A DNA stretch of 64,000 nt from a virus, in IMG/VR virus record IMGVR_UViG_3300042402_002055, positions 1 to 64,000 of that record. One strand, given 5' to 3'. The notes below the pieces were generated by a model, which saw only the letters and a list, made by a program, of their open reading frames with translations, had not been told where the DNA came from and made no database searches. Made by a program: the position numbers and the translations under genes. Positions within the stretch are counted from its first letter, which is position 1, and every line of letters begins with the position of its first letter. Of the stretch, positions 20,740 through 31,125 are shown piece after piece.

Positions 20740-21330
20740 ATGAATATAAAACCAATTTTCAATTTAAATAATTCAATAGACCAGACAAACTATTATTCAT
20801 TTGATAGTGCATTTACTGAAGAACAACTCGGTTGGATTTCCAATTTAGTTGAAAAGTATCCATTTGAAAAGGCAACAACGGTAGGAAATAATTGTGAAGA
20901 TGTTGATATAATTAGAAAATCTAATATAAAATGGATACATCACGATAATTTATCGTATTGGCTTTACGATAAAATAGAAAATATGGTAGTTGAAGCAAAT
21001 CAAATTTGGAATTTCAATATACATAGTGTTATCGATTCAATACAATATACAGAATATTTAGAAGGTGGTGGCCACTACGATTGGCATATAGATATTGGTC
21101 CTGGTTCAATAAACCATAGAAAAATTAGCATAACCATTCAATTATCAGATTCAGCTGATTATGAAGGTGGTGATTTTGAAATATGGACAGGTGGTGAATT
21201 TAAAAAATTACAAAGAAAAAAAGGATGTGGTATTTTATTTCCATCCTTTTTAATGCATAGAGTTACTCCAATTACAAGAGGTGTACGAAAAAGTTTAGTA
21301 TTGTGGGTTGGTGGTGATTCATATAAGTAG
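20740..21330 (+). CDS. 2OG-Fe(II) oxygenase, prolyl 4-hydroxylase/PiuC-like
   Basis: 196 residues. The iron and 2-oxoglutarate ligands are all visible: H116 and D118 in DWHID, distal H173 in LMHRVTP, and R183 in GVRKSL. The block YEGGDFEIWTGG, then GILFPSFLMHRVTPITRGVR, is the prolyl-hydroxylase/PiuC pattern. Such enzymes hydroxylate proline or related side chains using 2-oxoglutarate and O2. The gene directly follows a collagen-like fibre gene, so hydroxylation of that fibre is the obvious proposal. A caution is that the fibre's prolines are mostly in the X position, while animal collagen P4H prefers Y. It has its own host-type promoter, so it may be made earlier than its substrate. Confidence 0.85.
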   Translation: MNIKPIFNLNNSIDQTNYYSFDSAFTEEQLGWISNLVEKYPFEKATTVGNNCEDVDIIRKSNIKWIHHDNLSYWLYDKIENMVVEANQIWNFNIHSVIDSIQYTEYLEGGGHYDWHIDIGPGSINHRKISITIQLSDSADYEGGDFEIWTGGEFKKLQRKKGCGILFPSFLMHRVTPITRGVRKSLVLWVGGDSYK

Positions 21331-22360: not shown

Positions 22361-22631
22361 GGTATAAGCAATTTCTTATACTTTAACTAAAAAAAAGAGT
22401 AAACTAAAATGGGACTTAAATTTAGACGTGGTAGTACCGCACAACAATCCGGTTCATTAGCATTCGGAGAACCATATGTGAATACCACATTGGGAACATT
22501 AGTAGTCGGTGGTGCTACTGGTGACATCGTATTATCATCAGCAGGTACAGGAAGTACTGGAAACTTCGGAGCTATTTCGGGTTCTGGATTAGACATTACC
22601 GGAAATGCAAATATCGGTGGTAATTTATCAG
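22351..22631 (+). repeat. 281-bp direct repeat, copy 1 (promoter, leader and N-terminus)
   Basis: It matches 24111-24391 with an offset of 1760 bases and roughly 90 percent or better identity by eye. It covers the late box, a 48-nt leader and the first 70 codons of two fibre genes. Confidence 0.85.
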
Positions 22632-24109
22632 TAGGTGGACAATTAACAATTGGTGATAACACATCGGACACAATTAATGTAGTAGCATCTTTAAGTTCTT
22701 CACTTATTCCTCAAACAACAAATGTATTTGACTTAGGTTCTGCAAGTAAAATTTGGAGAGACCTTTATATATCAACGGGTTCAATTAAATTTGTAAATCC
22801 AGCCGGAACAGTTGTATCGACACTATCTGTTAATGCAGATGGTTCTCAAACTTTTCCAAGTGATTTAATCGTTAATGGATTAACGGTAGGTAAAGGATTA
22901 AATTCGGGATCTACTAATACTGCAGTAGGGGTAAGTGCATTAGGTGCAAATACGACAGGTACTACTAATACTGCCATTGGCCACACTGCCTTACAAAATA
23001 ATACAACAGGTGTTTCTAATACTGCAATTGGTGCATGGACTTTAACTGCTATTACAACGGCAAACGCTAATACTGCCGTTGGTTGGGGTGCTTTAAGATA
23101 TAATACTACTGCTAATTCAAATACTGCAGTAGGTTCAGGTGCCATGCAAAATAATACAACAGGTAATGGTAATACTGCAGTAGGAAATGCATCTCTAGCA
23201 ACAAATACAACAGGTGTTAATAATACGGCTTTAGGTACAAATGCTTTGGCTGATAATGTTGGTAATTATAATGTTGGTGTAGGTGCACTTGCATTAAGAC
23301 TAAATGTAAGTGGTAGTAGTAATATAGCTATTGGACATTCTGCTTTAGAATGGCATACCACAGGTCAAGGCAATACTGTAATTGGTGATACTGCAGGAAA
23401 TTTAATTACTACGGGTTCTTACAATACAATAATTGGTAAATATACAGGTGAAGAATCTTTATCTAATAATATAGTTTTAGCAGATGGACAAGGTAATATT
23501 AAATATCGTTGGGATGGAACTAATAATAATATTTATGGTAATGTAAATGTAAGTGGTTCTATTACTGGACAAATATTATCAACTAATGGTATAGTTTCGG
23601 GTTCATCACAAATAACATACGCAGATATTAGTTCAATACCAGCAGGAATAGTTAGTGGTTCATCTCAAGTAACACTATCATCAACGACTGGATATGATTC
23701 AGTATTAAACCAAGCAGTATTAACAACATCATCTCCAACCTTCACAGGTTTGACAATTAATGGAGCAATTACGGCAACGGGTGATATTACAGCATACTAT
23801 ACTTCGGATAAAAGACATAAACATAATATCGTATTAATTTCTGATGCGTTATCAAAGGTAACTAAATTGAATGGTGTAACTTGGGAATGGAATGATGATG
23901 TGAATGAAGTAACAAAATCAACTCCTAATACTGGTTTGATTGCACAAGAAGTTCAAGAAGTTTTACCAGAAGTGGTGAAAGAAAGAGAAGATGGTTTTTT
24001 AGCATTAGATTATTCAAAAATGATGGGTTTAATGATAGAAGCAATCAAAGAACAACAAAAACAAATTGATTCTTTATTAATAAAGATAAATCAACTGGAA
24101 AACAAATAG
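22409..24109 (+). CDS. Tail fibre with YadA-like head repeats and S74 chaperone
   Basis: 566 residues. Residues 1-70 are an Mtd_N-like anchor (LKFRRGSTAQQ, LAFGEPYVNT). Residues about 165-345 are roughly 22-residue repeats of the NTAVG-x(5)-AL-x-x-NTTG type, the left-handed beta-roll of YadA-type adhesin heads. Two VSGSSQ motifs follow. Residues about 460-566 are a Peptidase_S74 domain (SDKRHKHNI, with Ser and Lys retained; TGLIAQEVQEVLPEVV; the closing coiled coil). The protein should trimerise through the S74 domain and lose it by self-cleavage. It is a close sister of the next gene. Confidence 0.78.
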   Translation: MGLKFRRGSTAQQSGSLAFGEPYVNTTLGTLVVGGATGDIVLSSAGTGSTGNFGAISGSGLDITGNANIGGNLSVGGQLTIGDNTSDTINVVASLSSSLIPQTTNVFDLGSASKIWRDLYISTGSIKFVNPAGTVVSTLSVNADGSQTFPSDLIVNGLTVGKGLNSGSTNTAVGVSALGANTTGTTNTAIGHTALQNNTTGVSNTAIGAWTLTAITTANANTAVGWGALRYNTTANSNTAVGSGAMQNNTTGNGNTAVGNASLATNTTGVNNTALGTNALADNVGNYNVGVGALALRLNVSGSSNIAIGHSALEWHTTGQGNTVIGDTAGNLITTGSYNTIIGKYTGEESLSNNIVLADGQGNIKYRWDGTNNNIYGNVNVSGSITGQILSTNGIVSGSSQITYADISSIPAGIVSGSSQVTLSSTTGYDSVLNQAVLTTSSPTFTGLTINGAITATGDITAYYTSDKRHKHNIVLISDALSKVTKLNGVTWEWNDDVNEVTKSTPNTGLIAQEVQEVLPEVVKEREDGFLALDYSKMMGLMIEAIKEQQKQIDSLLIKINQLENK

Positions 24110-24120: not shown

Positions 24121-24391
24121 GGTATAATGAATTTATTATACTTTAACTAAAAAAAAGAGTAAACTAAAATGGGACTTAAATTTAGACGTGGTAGTACCGC
24201 ACAACAATCCGGGTCATTAGCATTCGGAGAACCATATGTGAATACCACATTGGGAACATTAGTAGTAGGTGGAGCAACAGGCGACATCGTATTATCATCA
24301 GCAGGAACAGGAAGTACCGGAAATTTCGGAGCTATTTCGGGTTCTGGATTAGATATTACCGGAAATGCAAATATTGCAGGTAATTTAACAT
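24111..24391 (+). repeat. 281-bp direct repeat, copy 2
   Basis: Partner of 22351-22631. Recombination between the copies would delete or duplicate one whole fibre gene while keeping promoter and anchor intact. Confidence 0.85.
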
Positions 24392-26145
24392 TAGGTGGAG
24401 CAATCACAATTGGTGATGCATCAGCAGATACTGTAAATGTTGTAGCATCTTTAAGTTCTTCACTTATTCCTCAAACAGATAATGTATTTGATTTAGGTTC
24501 TGCAACAAAAAGTTGGAGAGATTTATACATCTCAACAGGTTCAATTAAAGTAGTATCAAATGGTGCAGTTGTATCGACACTATCTACAAATGCGGATGGT
24601 TCTCAAACTTTCCCTAATGGTTTATACTCTCAAGCAAATATACAAATTGGAGATGGTTCATATCTAGACGCTGGTAAATTTCAAGTTGGTAGAAGAGGAA
24701 CTAGTCCTGACCAAAACGTTGTTTTAGGTATTGATGTAATGCCATTTTTGACAAGTGGTGTAGGTAATGTGGGTATTGGTAGACTTGCATTAAATAAATT
24801 AACAACTGGTACGTCTAATATAGGTGTTGGTGAAAGTGCAGGATATGGTATAAGTGGTAGTAATAGTCAAAATATTGCAATAGGATATGGTACTGCATTT
24901 AATATGACTGGTTCAAATGTGAGTCAGAACGTATTTTTAGGAACTAATGCGGGTACTTATCTGAATAATGGTATTTACAATACTGCAATTGGTGGTAATG
25001 CATTATTAGGTAGTATTGATTCTAATGATACCCCAACTAAAAGTACAGCATTAGGATATTCCGCAGGTGAATATTTAATAGGTAATAGTACAAACAACCT
25101 TTTATTAGGTGCAAATGCAGGCCCTAGTTCAGATACTACGGAAAGTTATAAATTGTATATAAGTAATGGTGATAGTGGTCAACAACCATTTATGCTTGGT
25201 AATATGGCAAATGATAGCAGAACATTATCTATCAATGCAGCAACAACTATAAGTGGTTCTGCGATTATTACGAATGATTTAGATTTGTACGGAAATAATA
25301 TTAATTTATATCACAACGGTACAACTATAATAAGTGGTTCTACTATTCAATTTAGATATGCAGATTTTAACTTGAATGGACTTAGACCACCTACACTTGG
25401 ACAAGGTTTAGCATTGGATTGGAGATATGGTGGAGTACCAACAGGAAGTGCAGGTGGTGCTTCGGTAGATTGGGTAATTGGTGGAACCGGTGTATCAAAT
25501 CATACAATGTTGAGTGGTCATCCAAACGGACTTAATGTTAATATAGCTCCTCAAACAGGTGGTACACTTTATCACGATTTATTATTCCCAAATAATACAG
25601 GTTCGGATTATCCAGGATACCAATATACATTCCCATCGGCAAATGGTACCATTGCTTTAACAACGGATTTAAGTTCAGGAGCAACTTCGATAACCGCTTT
25701 AAATTCATTCACTGCAAGTTTAAGTACTACATCAAATGTAAGATTTGGTTCAATCGGAGTTGGTATGGATGCAAGTGGAACATCTGGTAGAATTGATGCA
25801 GCAAATGATGTTGTAGCATTCTCTACTTCGGATATTCGTTTGAAAGAAAATATCAAACCAATTGAAAATGCATTAGAAAAGATTTCTAAGATTAGTGGTA
25901 ACACTTACGATTGGAGAGTAGAATTGAAAGATGTTCATGGATACGAAGGAAATGATGTGGGTGTAATTGCACAAGAAGTTGAAGCAGTATTACCACAATT
26001 AGTTCAAGACAGAGACAATGGATATAAGGCAGTTAAATATGACAAGTTAGTTGCATTATTGATTGAAGGTATTAAAGAACAACAAACACAAATACACTCT
26101 TTAACTTTAGAAATAGAAAAGTTAAAAGAACAAAAAGGTTTATAA
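24169..26145 (+). CDS. Tail fibre with beta-roll repeats and S74 chaperone
   Basis: 658 residues. The first 70 residues are nearly identical to the preceding gene. Residues about 185-325 are degenerate YadA-head-like repeats (NVGIGRLALNKLTTGTSN, NIAIGYGTAF, NTAIGGNALL). An extra beta domain at 390-500 (LDWRYGGVPTGSAGG) has no counterpart in the sister gene and is a candidate receptor-binding part. Residues about 550-658 are Peptidase_S74, with SDIRLKENI, VGVIAQEVEAVLPQLV and YDKLVALLIEGIKEQ. Ser and Lys of the cleavage site are present. Anchor and chaperone are conserved between the sisters while the middle differs. Confidence 0.78.
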   Translation: MGLKFRRGSTAQQSGSLAFGEPYVNTTLGTLVVGGATGDIVLSSAGTGSTGNFGAISGSGLDITGNANIAGNLTLGGAITIGDASADTVNVVASLSSSLIPQTDNVFDLGSATKSWRDLYISTGSIKVVSNGAVVSTLSTNADGSQTFPNGLYSQANIQIGDGSYLDAGKFQVGRRGTSPDQNVVLGIDVMPFLTSGVGNVGIGRLALNKLTTGTSNIGVGESAGYGISGSNSQNIAIGYGTAFNMTGSNVSQNVFLGTNAGTYLNNGIYNTAIGGNALLGSIDSNDTPTKSTALGYSAGEYLIGNSTNNLLLGANAGPSSDTTESYKLYISNGDSGQQPFMLGNMANDSRTLSINAATTISGSAIITNDLDLYGNNINLYHNGTTIISGSTIQFRYADFNLNGLRPPTLGQGLALDWRYGGVPTGSAGGASVDWVIGGTGVSNHTMLSGHPNGLNVNIAPQTGGTLYHDLLFPNNTGSDYPGYQYTFPSANGTIALTTDLSSGATSITALNSFTASLSTTSNVRFGSIGVGMDASGTSGRIDAANDVVAFSTSDIRLKENIKPIENALEKISKISGNTYDWRVELKDVHGYEGNDVGVIAQEVEAVLPQLVQDRDNGYKAVKYDKLVALLIEGIKEQQTQIHSLTLEIEKLKEQKGL

Positions 26146-26148
26146 TAA

Positions 26149-27147
26149 ATGTATGATGTTTACTACACAACCGCTGGAGGGCCTTGGTTCAACAGTGGTG
26201 CAGATATGTGGGTAACCGAATGGATAAAAGAAGTGGCACCTCATTTAGAAGTTAAGCCACTTCTTTTGTTTCATAGAAAGAGACCCGATAATTATGAAGA
26301 ATTTCCAATTGATATAGACCATATTTGGGAAACCAATGAGTTAGATATTGATGAAATTCTAAAAGGTGCAAGAAACATTCATATATTACATGGACACTAC
26401 ACTCCTACGACCGCAATTCATAATAATTTAGATAGAATCAATTCAATTGTATTTCATAATTTGACAAAGGTATCAATGATGTCACAAATGAATAAAGATG
26501 AATATTTGCATTGGTATGGTAATTGGGAATGGGAAAGTGAATTGATAGATAAAATTAAAAATAAAGTTTGGGTAGGATTGTATCATTTTCCATACAAAAC
26601 GGAAAACTTACATCATATTCCAAACACATATCAGTTTACACATAATAAAGAATTAACAAATAATACTAAGATAGGATTTGCAGCAAGAGCAGAAGGTAGA
26701 AAGAATTTGGAATATATAGACGGAATTGATTCATACATATCTACAAATTCAGAAACATTCAACAAGTATTATAGAAAAAAATATGGATATAAATTTGAAA
26801 AATCAAAAGTTTACAAATTTGACCATAAACATAAAGAAAGATTTTACGGATTAGATTGGGGAATATCACATTCTTGTTTTGAAAATGAACCATTTGGATA
26901 TGGAATTTTTGAAGCAATAGATTGGGGCAAACTACCAATATTACATACAAAATGGGTAGACTTAATTGACTACAAATACAAAGCAGATAGTAAGGAAACA
27001 TTTAAAGAAACTTACGAAATAATTTGTAAAGATGACTATGAAACCCGTAAAGTTGAATTTGACAAACTTAAAAAGTGGATGATATCTAATTTCTCTAATA
27101 AAGATGTATGGAAACAAAAACTTTTAGATATTTATAACGGAGATTAA
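26149..27147 (+). CDS. Glycosyltransferase, GT-B fold (GT4-like)
   Basis: 332 residues. It has a glycine-rich N-terminal segment (TTAGGPWFNSGADMWV), a conserved KIGFAARAEGRKNLEY-type strand-turn where GT4 enzymes bind the donor phosphate, and CFENEPFGYGIFEAIDWG. The last is the E-x7-E nucleotide-sugar motif of GT4. No signal or membrane segment is seen, so it acts in the cytoplasm. It starts 3 bases after a fibre gene, so it is translated with late structural proteins. Glycosylation of fibres during assembly is the likely role. Donor and acceptor cannot be read from the sequence. Confidence 0.72.
   Translation: MYDVYYTTAGGPWFNSGADMWVTEWIKEVAPHLEVKPLLLFHRKRPDNYEEFPIDIDHIWETNELDIDEILKGARNIHILHGHYTPTTAIHNNLDRINSIVFHNLTKVSMMSQMNKDEYLHWYGNWEWESELIDKIKNKVWVGLYHFPYKTENLHHIPNTYQFTHNKELTNNTKIGFAARAEGRKNLEYIDGIDSYISTNSETFNKYYRKKYGYKFEKSKVYKFDHKHKERFYGLDWGISHSCFENEPFGYGIFEAIDWGKLPILHTKWVDLIDYKYKADSKETFKETYEIICKDDYETRKVEFDKLKKWMISNFSNKDVWKQKLLDIYNGD
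27127..27138 (+). promoter_or_regulatory. Putative late promoter box GATATTTATAAC
   Basis: It lies inside the last codons of the glycosyltransferase gene and 21 nt before the next ATG. Because the codons read DIYN, its presence may be partly coding constraint. Confidence 0.4.
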
Positions 27148-27158
27148 TACATAAAAAT

Positions 27159-28874
27159 ATGCCAAGGACAAACTTATCATTAGGAAATTTATTTAGAGCC
27201 GTTAGTGGTTCTGCAAGAAGTGGACAAGTATCATTAGGTGGATTATCAGGAACTGCAAATAATAGTTCTTTGATTGGTTTTGCAACCGATTCAATTACAG
27301 TTACACCACCTACATTTACATATATAGTAGAGAGTACAACTGAAAATGCACAATTTACATTTAATTCAACAGGTTCTTTATTTTATTCAAAAGTACAACA
27401 ACAATTGAATAATTATACTTGTTCTTTTAATAATGCAAATTTTGCAACTGGTTCAAAATCATTTGGAACAGGTAATTCTGTTTTCCCAATAACTCCTGCA
27501 TCAATTAACTCATCTAACTATTCGGAAGCTGCCGCTACATTAAGTATGGCATATGCAGATGGATATAATTTAGCAGCAACAAACTACGGAACTACAACTA
27601 CAAAAGTATTATTTGCAGTTGATGTTTACAATACAATAAACGAACCAGATTTTTGTTTATTATTCGGTACACAAATCCAATTGGCAGATGGTACAATGGT
27701 AAATGTTGAAGATTTAAATATTGGAGACGAAATTAAATCATGGGTTCCTGCAGGATTACCTGATGAAACACAAGACCCAGAAAGTGACCAAGTTGAATGG
27801 AGATTTTATCACTCTGACGAATTATTAGGAACTACACAAAATGTAACAGTTAGTGATTTGACTTTTAATTTTGCAGAAGGATATTTTTCTTTAAATAATG
27901 GTTTAATAAAGGCAACTGAAACTCACCCACTATACGTTTGGGATAATGAGATTGGAAAATATAAGTTTAAGAATGTAGGTGATATTTTACCTGGTGATAG
28001 ACTTGTAATGCAAGATGAAACAGAAGTTGAAATAAGCAATATAGAAATTGTAAGAGAAGATGTTGAAATTGTAACTGTAAATGTGGAAAATGCCGATGTG
28101 TATATTTCAAATGGTTTAATTTCACATAACAAAGGAACAACAACTCAACCATCTATTCCTGCAAGTGGTTTAAGAATGTACTTAGACCCATCAAAAGCTG
28201 CATCTACAAATGGTACGGCAACAACTGACTGGTTAGATTTAAGTGGATATAATACGGGTGTAAGACCTGCCGGTGTTTCAAATGCAGCAGGTATTAGTGG
28301 TGGTAACCCATCATATAATAACGGAGCTAGTAGAAAAGAAAAATATTGGGCAGGAAATGGTACAAACCAATTCTGGTATAAAGATACTACGACTAATATA
28401 AATGGTGGTATTTCTCAATTTAATACTAATACTGGTACAATTCATATGTGGATTAGACCTACAACAACATTAGGTACAACTACAAGACACATTTTTGACT
28501 ACGCAGGTTTTTATGGTTTGGCAATAGAATCAACAGATAGCTCTACTTTAAATAGAATTCAATTTAGAGGTAGTTCATTAGGAAATAGTGGTCAATTTAC
28601 AACTTCATTATCATCAAATGTTTGGTATATGATTTCAGCAACTTTCCAACCTAGTGGTACAACAACAGTTTATGTGGATGGTAGTTCAATTGGAACATAT
28701 ACATCATCAGCATTTACTGCACCATCTAATAGTAACTTTGTAACAATTGGTAGTAATAGTGCAATAACAACATTTTGGAATGGCCAAATAGGACCAGTAT
28801 TGTTCTATAACACATTACAAACTTCGACATCGGTAACACAAACATATAATTATTTCTCTCCAACATATAAATAA
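27159..28874 (+). CDS. Adhesin with embedded Hint (intein-like) domain and C-terminal LamG domain
   Basis: 571 residues in three parts. Residues 1-165 are a beta-rich virion-type region. Residues 166-324 form a Hint domain: C166 in CLLFGTQIQLADG, the block B T-x-x-H (T253, H256 in TETHPLYV), and the end ENADVYISNGLISHN with H323 and N324. Residues about 335-571 are a LamG-like lectin sandwich (LRMYLDPSKA, TVYVDGSSIGTY, WNGQIGPVLFYN). There is no homing endonuclease, so it is mini-intein sized (about 159 residues). The residue after Asn is Lys, not Cys/Ser/Thr, as in bacterial intein-like (BIL) domains that cleave rather than splice. The protein may therefore cut itself and release or re-attach its lectin head. 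Confidence 0.82.
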   Translation: MPRTNLSLGNLFRAVSGSARSGQVSLGGLSGTANNSSLIGFATDSITVTPPTFTYIVESTTENAQFTFNSTGSLFYSKVQQQLNNYTCSFNNANFATGSKSFGTGNSVFPITPASINSSNYSEAAATLSMAYADGYNLAATNYGTTTTKVLFAVDVYNTINEPDFCLLFGTQIQLADGTMVNVEDLNIGDEIKSWVPAGLPDETQDPESDQVEWRFYHSDELLGTTQNVTVSDLTFNFAEGYFSLNNGLIKATETHPLYVWDNEIGKYKFKNVGDILPGDRLVMQDETEVEISNIEIVREDVEIVTVNVENADVYISNGLISHNKGTTTQPSIPASGLRMYLDPSKAASTNGTATTDWLDLSGYNTGVRPAGVSNAAGISGGNPSYNNGASRKEKYWAGNGTNQFWYKDTTTNINGGISQFNTNTGTIHMWIRPTTTLGTTTRHIFDYAGFYGLAIESTDSSTLNRIQFRGSSLGNSGQFTTSLSSNVWYMISATFQPSGTTTVYVDGSSIGTYTSSAFTAPSNSNFVTIGSNSAITTFWNGQIGPVLFYNTLQTSTSVTQTYNYFSPTYK

Positions 28875-28944: not shown

Positions 28945-31125
28945 ATGGCAGAAAAATTAGTATCGGCAGGTGTTTTCACAAGAGAAAATGACCTTTCATT
29001 CTTACAACAAGGTGTAGCAGATATAGGTGCAGCATTCATAGGCCCTTTCAACGAAGGTCCAGTAGTTCCAACAATCGTAAATTCACAAGCTGAGTTTACT
29101 TCATTATTTGGAGCAGCTGATGGAAAATATTATACTCCTTTAGCAGTACAAAACTATTTAAGAGAAGCAGGAACTGCAACAATTTGTAGAGTAGCAGGTG
29201 TTGGTGGATATACAGCAGGGAAACCATTGATGGTAGTAGGTTCACATGGTAATGTAACATCTTCACTTGCAATATTATTCCCAACAGGTTCTTCATTGAC
29301 AGGATTAAGTGGTTCAACAATTATATCAGACATTTCGGGTGGTGTAGTTGAATTAACAGATATCGAATCTACTTATGGAACATCTCCATTTGGTTCAAAA
29401 TCAGGATATGCTTATGGTGTATTTAAAAATACAGCTGTAACGGAATCAATCGCTACTGCAAGTGTAGTAATATTAGATGAACAAGACTTCACATTTGATG
29501 CACAAGAAGCATTGACACCGATGATTAAATCACAACAAATTAGTGGTGAAAGATACGACCTTTTCAAATTTGAAACATTGGGTGTTGGTAATTCTGCAAA
29601 TACAAAAGTAAAAATAGGTATTTCAAATATTAAAGCAGCTGGTTCAATAAACGGAACAGACTATGGAACATTTACAGTTGTAGTGAGAGATTTTAATGAT
29701 ACAAATAAGAAAAAGAATGTTTTAGAAACATTTGCAAATGTAAACTTAGACCCCAACTCCCCAAACTTTATTAGTAGAGTAATTGGTGATAGAAAATTAT
29801 CATTCGTTCCAAATTCAGATGGTAAAATACAAGAAGAAGGTGATTGGGTAAATACTTCAAAATATATTAGAGTTGCAAGCTTAAATGTAAACGCACCAAT
29901 TCAAGCAGTTCCATTCGGACATGCAGCTTATCAATTACCGGTTGTAGCTGGAGCAAACAATAGTTTAATTCCAGTAGTAACATTTGTAACTGCATCTGCA
30001 ACACAATATGGTGGTATTGATTTGGATTTCAATAATGATAATAAAGTATACTTAAAACCAATTCCAGTTTCTGCAACAATAGGTTCTAACTCTGTGTTTG
30101 GATTAGATGTAGCAAATGGAGGTTCATTATCAGTAGGTTCTACAACTGCACAATTCGTTGTAGCATTCCAAGAAGGGTTTGATGGTATGAGTCCATTAAC
30201 ACCTATTAATTTGGGTTCTGATATATCTCAAGGAAACACACAAGGATTTGATTTAACAAATTCCACATCAAATGGTTCCGTTGCATATATGAAAGCAATT
30301 AACGCTTTATCTAACGCAGATGAATTTGATATTAATATGGTTGTAGCACCTGGTGTTACAAAGAACGACCACTCATATATTCACACAGCAATTGTTGATA
30401 TGGTTGAACAAAGAGCAGATGCATTCTTTATTACTGAAATGGGTGATTCTGATTTAAGTTTAGAAACAACAATTACTAAAGCTAGTGAGTTGGATACTAA
30501 TTACGCAGCAACTTACTATCCTTGGATTAAAACAATCGATATTAATACAAATAAATTAGTAACAGTCCCACCATCGGTATTATTACCTGGAGTATTTGCA
30601 GCAAACGATAGAGTAGCAGCAGAATGGTTCGCACCAGCAGGTTTGAATAGAGGTGGATTGGTAGGAGCAGTTAGTGTATTAAATAGATTAACTCAGTCTG
30701 AAAAAGATGAATTATACGAAGGTAAAGTAAACCCAATCGTACAATTCCCAGGACAAGGTATTGTAGTATTCGGACAAAAAACATTACAAGATAGACCATC
30801 TGCATTGGATAGAATCAATGTTAGAAGATTGTTGTTAACTGTTAGAAAATACATAGCATCTACTTCAAGATTCTTAGTATTCGAACAAAATACTTCAACA
30901 ACAAGAAACACATTTTTAAATATTGTTAACCCTTATTTAGAATCAATCCAACAAAGACAAGGTTTGTACGCATTCCGTGTTGTAATGGATGAATCTAATA
31001 ACACTCCAGACGTAATCGATAGAAACATCTTAGCAGGTGCTATCTACTTACAACCAACTAAGACTGCTGAATTCATTCAAATTGATTTCAACATCTTACC
31101 AACTGGAGCAACATTTAACGGATAA
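28945..31125 (+). CDS. gp18: Tail sheath protein, T4 gp18-like
   Basis: 726 residues, near the T4 length of 659. The N-terminus (SAGVFTRENDLSFLQQG, then AAFIGPFNEGP) is the contractile-sheath opening. The C-terminal domain (VNPIVQFPGQGIVVFGQKTL, RPSALDRINVRRLL, FEQNT-x(4)-RNTF, and the final TAEFIQIDFNILPTGATF) is the conserved core domain of phage and type VI sheaths that forms the interlocking handshake. The middle 200-450 region is the variable surface domain. The tube gene follows. Confidence 0.95.
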   Translation: MAEKLVSAGVFTRENDLSFLQQGVADIGAAFIGPFNEGPVVPTIVNSQAEFTSLFGAADGKYYTPLAVQNYLREAGTATICRVAGVGGYTAGKPLMVVGSHGNVTSSLAILFPTGSSLTGLSGSTIISDISGGVVELTDIESTYGTSPFGSKSGYAYGVFKNTAVTESIATASVVILDEQDFTFDAQEALTPMIKSQQISGERYDLFKFETLGVGNSANTKVKIGISNIKAAGSINGTDYGTFTVVVRDFNDTNKKKNVLETFANVNLDPNSPNFISRVIGDRKLSFVPNSDGKIQEEGDWVNTSKYIRVASLNVNAPIQAVPFGHAAYQLPVVAGANNSLIPVVTFVTASATQYGGIDLDFNNDNKVYLKPIPVSATIGSNSVFGLDVANGGSLSVGSTTAQFVVAFQEGFDGMSPLTPINLGSDISQGNTQGFDLTNSTSNGSVAYMKAINALSNADEFDINMVVAPGVTKNDHSYIHTAIVDMVEQRADAFFITEMGDSDLSLETTITKASELDTNYAATYYPWIKTIDINTNKLVTVPPSVLLPGVFAANDRVAAEWFAPAGLNRGGLVGAVSVLNRLTQSEKDELYEGKVNPIVQFPGQGIVVFGQKTLQDRPSALDRINVRRLLLTVRKYIASTSRFLVFEQNTSTTRNTFLNIVNPYLESIQQRQGLYAFRVVMDESNNTPDVIDRNILAGAIYLQPTKTAEFIQIDFNILPTGATFNG

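Follow-up and report, generated by a model that had tools for sequence, protein, structure and literature searches.

Bacterial intein-like (BIL) domains of the A type carry an N-terminal Cys (Cys1), a block B T-x-x-H motif and a C-terminal His-Asn, and have no Cys, Ser or Thr at position +1. Hedgehog Hog domains are marked by the lack of a C-terminal Asn and by a sterol-recognition region that follows the Hint domain, while the FrpC 'clip-and-link' module operates by Asp-Pro chemistry in a domain unrelated to Hint. The available part of PMC4031507 describes the chemistry of A-type BILs as N-terminal thioester formation, C-terminal cleavage by Asn cyclization and ligation by the freed amine, with cleavage products dominating; unlike this account, an excerpt of PMC7765530 states that A-type domains are unable to ligate their flanks. 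The BIL2 domain of BUBL1 from the ciliate Tetrahymena thermophila (PDB 6y75 and 6tmm), which is flanked by ubiquitin-like domains, is described in the accessible section of PMC8616854 as forming an isopeptide bond with a Lys side chain and conjugating to other proteins, with the acceptor Lys placed in the next domain and not stated to be the +1 residue. FrpC likewise combines self-cleavage with a Lys isopeptide bond in a surface protein (PMC5472700, in excerpt). We found no description of a processing step of this kind in phage fibers among open-access full texts, which is weak evidence of absence; the retrieved portions of PMC5259590, PMC3556154, PMC7824862 and PMC6143709 deal with inteins in enzymes, or with tail proteins without naming this domain.

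The domain considered here lies in a window of 64,000 nt, the whole stretch of DNA that was analyzed, taken from a virus record of 118,406 bases. The major capsid protein shares 53-54% identity with its counterparts in Flavobacterium phage immuto, 'Microcystis' phage Mel-JY01 and the uncultured phage LR756508, placing the window phage in a T4-like group, and the phages that carry this fiber Hint are a freshwater family. The Hint ORF (27159..28874, + strand, as are the fiber genes, the further gene and the sheath gene that flank it) encodes 571 aa in three parts: an N-terminal part or N-extein of residues 1-165 (27159..27653), beta-rich in the AlphaFold2 model; the Hint domain, residues 166-324 (159 residues, 27654..28130); and a C-terminal part, residues 325-571 (28131..28871), with a LamG domain at residues 419-559 (28413-28835; Pfam Laminin_G_3, E 8.6e-15). 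On one side are two tail-fiber genes (22409-24109 and 24169-26145) with an Mtd_N-like start and a Peptidase_S74 end (Pfam E 6.7e-17 and 1.2e-17), followed by one more gene (26149..27147), and directly 3' on the other side is the tail sheath gene (28945..31125; PHROG 23, E 1.3e-69). No Pfam or PHROG family covers residues 1-165 alone, and the description of this part as virion-type rests on gene position, between fiber genes and sheath. The same three-part architecture occurs in every complete relative found through the N-terminal part. Of the 234 ORFs in which at least one of the three parts was found, 224 have the N-terminal part and all 224 also carry Hint sequence, although the contigs are partly repeated and the search favors close relatives. 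The LamG part is present in every complete copy of the family, and the only two ORFs with LamG alone are fragments of genes interrupted by a stop or a shift of frame. Other broken copies include L151, with an in-frame TGA inside the Hint domain just before HN (~4415), and L167, L171, L286 and L296, with frame breaks; these may represent true decay or sequencing error.

Pfam gave no Hint model above its cut-off for the 571-aa protein (Hint_2, E 0.076; Intein_splicing, E 0.48), and PHROG 38766, labeled 'virion structural protein', matches residues 139-326 (E 9.5e-9). An AlphaFold2 model of the whole protein, built from 49 family members, has a mean pLDDT of 85.7 and contains a Hint fold, and a model of the Hint domain alone, from 17 sequences, reaches a pLDDT of 89.1 and a pTM of 0.83. 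Foldseek with the full model returned mostly lectin-like parts of unrelated proteins. Alignment of the Hint model by VIA-align, in which rows within one Z unit count as tied, placed BUBL1 BIL2 at the top as the best structural match (Z 19.5, rmsd 1.6, 135 residues aligned, 22% identity over the aligned part; second BIL2 entry, 19.1), followed by the Clostridium thermocellum BIL (PDB 2lwy; Z 18.7, rmsd 1.6 over 131), DnaB inteins (18.4, including Ssp DnaB, 1mi8) and Hedgehog (17.6). A Z of at least 8 was reached by 85 of 998 chains, and the 50 matches listed are inteins, BILs or Hedgehog, with the qualification that the 998 are Foldseek's best PDB candidates and that the absence of other families is uninformative. 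C166, T253, H256, H323, N324 and K325 do not vary in any of 81 proteins, those of the window and of 80 IMG/VR loci, a set chosen without regard to these residues and containing many near-copy contigs; the N-terminal Cys is present in each of the 105 clusters formed at 90% identity from matches to a profile starting at that Cys. The predicted fold and these residues indicate that the Hint domain in the fiber ORF is real.

The sequence-only reading had placed this domain at 27651-28133, which corresponds to residues 165-325, and its ORF, coordinates and catalytic residues are as it had claimed; its description of a catalytically complete Hint domain without Cys, Ser or Thr at +1 ahead of a LamG domain is likewise borne out by the residues, the predicted fold and the Pfam match. 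C166 (27654-27656) is the predicted N-terminal nucleophile for thioester formation, block B reads T253-E-T-H256 (27915-27926), and H323-N324 (28125-28130) is the predicted site of Asn cyclization. The protein thus combines the features of the Hint superfamily (Hedgehog/intein fold, N-terminal Cys, block B T-x-x-H) with those of A-type BILs (C-terminal His-Asn and no Cys, Ser or Thr at +1). The C-terminal motif unlike intein block G that distinguishes B-type BILs is absent, as HN is present; the Cys, Ser or Thr at +1 of class 1 inteins is replaced by K325; and the Hog features are missing, with the Asn present and LamG following the Hint domain. By these sequence and predicted-fold features the domain is an A-type BIL with predicted activity. 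It differs from described A-type BILs in being part of a phage tail protein whose gene has an obligate partner next to it, in belonging to a clade with an invariant Lys-Gly at +1/+2, and in having an Asp where His is usual in block F. We take D313 (28095..28097), which is invariant in a 49-row alignment (A5), to occupy that position. The usual block F His aids Asn cyclization, and an Asp there might slow it.

The gene at 26149..27147 (332 aa) is an obligate companion of the Hint protein. A scan of IMG/VR with this gene alone found a Hint protein adjacent in 80 of 80 relatives, the best 80 of 274 loci, which were picked without regard to Hints and include gene families both unlike and like those of the window. 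Among all loci with the partner gene, 279 of 280 have a Hint match, many of them sharing contigs, and at the sole exception, L230, the contig ends 194 residues into the Hint gene frame. The two genes occur in three orders (gene then Hint, Hint then gene, and Hint-gene-Hint), the last seen on the contig of L085 and L231, where the partner gene lies between two Hint proteins; the L085 Hint as a single query matched only its own contig. In the phages collection the partner gene matches LR756508 only, directly after a C-terminal Hint protein. Synteny with the sheath gene was rejected as the cause of the pairing: in LR756508 Hint and partner are side by side (127498-129886), with the sheath gene at 205952, ~76 kb from the partner. 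A scan of genomic contigs gave two loci, a Flavobacteriales bin with the same partner-Hint pair (L320) and a contig that ends inside the partner gene and shows no Hint match (L321). The fiber gene taken alone, as in the sequence-only reading, is therefore too small a unit, and the neighboring gene belongs with it.

The partner protein is weakly glycosyltransferase-like. Pfam Glycos_transf_1 was found in one of 15 members (E 0.037), with no family in the window copy, and a PHROG glycosyltransferase also in one of 15 (E 0.0026), while a PDB profile search and NCBIfam gave no credible match. The window copy contains E-P-F-G-x-x-x-F-E, which we take to resemble the retaining GT-B motif. A 2OG-Fe(II) oxygenase gene upstream of the fiber genes (20740-21330; Pfam E 3.1e-14) was considered as a third partner but is not supported, as a relative was present in 0 of 76 partner-gene loci in stretches that reach at most ~5 kb from the partner gene, about its distance in the window.

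To survey the +1 position (K325, 28131-28133; K325-G326, 28131..28136), we used every complete Hint domain just downstream of a partner gene, 133 distinct domains chosen by position only, and skipped nine incomplete rows from the up- and downstream sets together. HN and Lys at +1 are present in all 133, and Gly at +2 in 132. Residue -1 varies (F 100, L 21, A 4, S 4, T 3, Y 1), which argues against a general junction effect. Clustering at 70% identity gave 29 representatives, the least alike pair being 25% identical, and only 10 of 157 occupied columns never vary (C, G, N, T, H, E, H, N, K, G); the K+1 and G+2 are thus held as tightly as the catalytic residues. This conservation extends across unrelated C-terminal parts: the window protein and L256 have LamG, L283 has fn3 (E 7e-4), L249 has an uncharacterized stretch of 138 aa, and others end in tails of 7-26 residues. 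The codon tally and alignment A5 were selected on Lys or SHNKG and were left out of this claim. As a control, C or S occupies +1 in 13 of 13 readable junctions of cellular inteins (30 loci, mainly true inteins, 28 read), a set that covers inteins and not BILs. In the sequence-only reading the Lys was a mere lack of the usual nucleophile; being as conserved as the catalytic residues (133/133), it probably has a positive role, although K-G may be conserved in part because Hint and KG were inherited together as one module. A tree of 42 clusters groups the partner-linked Hints together (96/91), 30 of 35 with K, its bootstrap not fully settled.

Some phage Hints of this type do without Lys. Outside the partner-linked clade the relatives carry T, V, A or M in the +1 position, and seven distinct Hints upstream of the partner gene have V (three) or K, T, C or G (one each), the C case being without HN. 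This case, the ORF at 2304 of L250, is the sole upstream Hint without the C-terminal HN and ends ANGYL-CRQ. At six loci (L244, L245, L246, L248, L252 and L281) a Hint with a tiny tail lies upstream of the partner gene and a second, K+1 Hint downstream. The upstream tails read VHGK, VHSK, VHGKS, TFHDK, VHDK and GKGE, and usually the Hint follows a glycine-rich stretch. Lys in short tails as a general rule was tried and set aside: all 25 distinct HN-ended tails listed (up to 30 residues) contain Lys, as do 29-88% of ordinary length-matched C-termini (n=571), and the tails are related.

We propose, tentatively and with a probability of roughly 0.45, that this is an active self-processing Hint domain resembling A-type BILs, in which an amine, favorably that of Lys+1, resolves the thioester and the lectin stays attached. 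C166 would attack the preceding peptide bond to leave a thioester at the end of the N-terminal part, cyclization of N324 would free an amine end at K325, and an amine, with K325 as the favored acceptor, would then attack the thioester. If the alpha-amine of K325 reacted after Asn cyclization, the result would be ordinary peptide splicing without a +1 nucleophile; if the side-chain amine reacted, it would be an isopeptide joint. Either way, the 159-residue Hint domain would be removed and the lectin head left covalently on the N-terminal part. In relatives with a tail of 2-26 residues the same reaction might trim the Hint domain from the end of a virion protein, and the glycosyltransferase-like partner could act on the same product. 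With an invariant Lys where inteins have their nucleophile, Lys as the acceptor is the economical reading.

Several lines of evidence are consistent with ligation. BIL domains head the ranking of the predicted fold, the catalytic set is complete, both Hint borders fall at low-confidence hinges of the whole-protein model (158-162 and 327-330), the lectin is kept in every complete copy, and K-G is fixed though the C-terminal parts behind it differ. Splicing by A-type BILs and the Lys isopeptide of BUBL1 BIL2 serve as precedents (PMC4031507 and PMC8616854, each in part). The sequence-only reading had held that intein-like domains without the +1 nucleophile cleave; this is true of A-type BILs, which by the same portion of PMC4031507 also sometimes splice. 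Counted against ligation are the predominance of cleavage over ligation in the characterized A-type BILs (PMC4031507, in part), the contrary review statement that they do not ligate at all (PMC7765530), the C-terminal Hint copies that have no extein worth ligating, the chance that D313 in place of the block F His might slow Asn cyclization, and the descent of one shared module, through which K-G may have been kept. A narrower version, in which the Lys+1 side chain itself attacks the C166 thioester so that, after Asn cyclization, the lectin is isopeptide-joined and the partner modifies or uses the junction, seems improbable to us. A side-chain acceptor, here as in the isopeptide form of the main proposal, would for the most part carry a proton at neutral pH, and the active site would need to lower its pKa. 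If true, this version would give the phage tail a covalent joint that assembles itself, and protein splicing a new route.

It is possible, though on balance we consider it unlikely, that the Hint domain only cleaves, at one or both ends, so that the parts separate, the lectin is released or held non-covalently, and Lys+1 is retained as the head's new N-terminus. Adjacent fibers carry Peptidase_S74, a known self-cleaving chaperone type, and the terminal jumbo-phage copies look like end-trimming modules. The yield of mainly cleavage products reported for A-type BILs (PMC4031507, partial text) points the same way. However, a released receptor-binding head would be of little use, LamG is never lost in complete relatives, and an invariant Lys before unrelated C-terminal parts is not called for by cleavage. 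Rather small odds attach to a transfer in which the thioester joins the N-terminal part to another molecule, as in Hedgehog or BUBL proteins, be that molecule a partner fiber subunit, through its Lys, or else a sugar or an amine that the glycosyltransferase-like enzyme supplies. Such a transfer would suit the pairing with the partner gene (80/80, best 80 of 274) in three gene orders, C-terminal Hints whose tails of 2-10 residues offer no splicing target, and the Lys-mediated conjugation of BUBL1 BIL2 to other proteins (PMC8616854, as excerpted). The enzyme assignment is weak, though, gene pairing does not show chemistry, and the conserved Asn would be superfluous for simple N-terminal transfer. 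The earlier proposal that cleavage frees the head or that the thioester attaches it to another molecule thus divides: release has become the less likely half, and attachment has gained a precedent in BUBL1 BIL2 (PMC8616854, in excerpt).

That the Hint domain has no activity and keeps its fold to serve as a structural spacer or to assist folding has a slim chance of being right. Decay in single cases, such as the upstream Hint of L250 without HN and the LR756508 copy without the block B His, would fit an inert domain; set against it, 147 of 157 columns vary, and C, T, H, H and N still show no change among domains as little as 25% identical. That the domain is a mobile intein trapped once its +1 nucleophile was lost is highly improbable. 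Fold, motifs and catalytic residues are shared with class 1 inteins, but all 224 N-terminal-part ORFs, from a search that favors close relatives, carry Hint sequence (contigs partly repeated), leaving no empty allele among them, the 159-residue domain is too small to hold an endonuclease, and the Lys is constant and not drifting.

A Hint domain that lacks the +1 nucleophile is readily taken for a worn-down intein, and this clade fixes one particular +1 residue. What marks out this domain resembling A-type BILs is the unusual fixed Lys-Gly, the virion setting and the obligate partner. A fixed Lys+1 ahead of unrelated C-terminal parts makes the natural role of BIL domains directly testable. If ligation by the Lys amine is correct, self-splicing would be the way a phage lectin protein is covalently put together, and a splicing domain that accepts Lys would have practical value for joining proteins.

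Searched against the phages collection, the full-length window protein matches four records, only over the Hint domain and a few preceding residues, including Phage NCTB (E 3e-7) and SNUABM_32 (E 5e-9). Other Hints as queries add about 50 Erwinia jumbo-phage records, Dickeya AD1 and Yersinia fHe-Yen9-02, as well as Alcaligenes Afa-NA1, Salmonella Sen-NF and Phage NCTB. The terminal Hints of jumbo phages (Erwinia Y3, Yoloswag, Alexandra and SNUABM; AD1; fHe-Yen9-02; NCTB) belong to the subfamily of the window Hint and occur in structural proteins. They differ from it in position, lying in the copies inspected at the extreme C-terminus of a virion or tail protein with 7-12 residues to follow, in having T, V, A or M at +1, and in having no relative of the partner gene, which turns up in the phages collection in LR756508 alone. 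Publications on the virion proteins of these jumbo phages yielded no size or peptide data for Hint proteins. The sequence-only reading knew of no characterized phage fiber that uses this step, and none was found in open-access texts, but some GenBank tail proteins do bear an intein label: the annotation 'contains intein domain' stands on the Y3 record and on one of those for NCTB. In the Erwinia-type jumbo phages (L082, L234-L237, L239 and L240) the terminal Hint is in a fiber protein beside two more fiber genes, and the SNUABM_32 fiber protein has collagen-like repeats. For related 'hairy' phages the identity of the hair proteins is given as not known in the accessible part of PMC6143709.

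Further arrangements were seen among the relatives. Large related phages have a second kind of Hint protein. In four of these (L323, L324, L325 and L327, from the records behind L202, L100, L182 and L098) an N-terminal part of ~290-320 aa with an MKGT-type start precedes between one and three Hints in tandem; the Cys next to the HN of the first Hint doubles as Cys1 of the next in L323 and L324, and L324 ends HNK-stop. L326, from the record behind L248, has two Hints without the MKGT-type part, the first with K at +1. No protein of the tandem kind was found in the window's own record. NCTB BN7874_135 (L238:5498-5959) is a stand-alone Hint-like protein of 153 aa without the usual N-terminal Cys segment; it ends HN-KVD, sits between two tail genes and is possibly a half used in trans. 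In the LR756508 protein (L241:9499-10797), S-A-S-Q replaces the block B T-x-x-H and the end, HN-KH, is kept. Alcaligenes phage Afa-NA1 (L232) and Salmonella phage Sen-NF (L233) have the same 476-aa Hint tail protein, identical at start and end, which suggests that these records are mixed or mislabeled.
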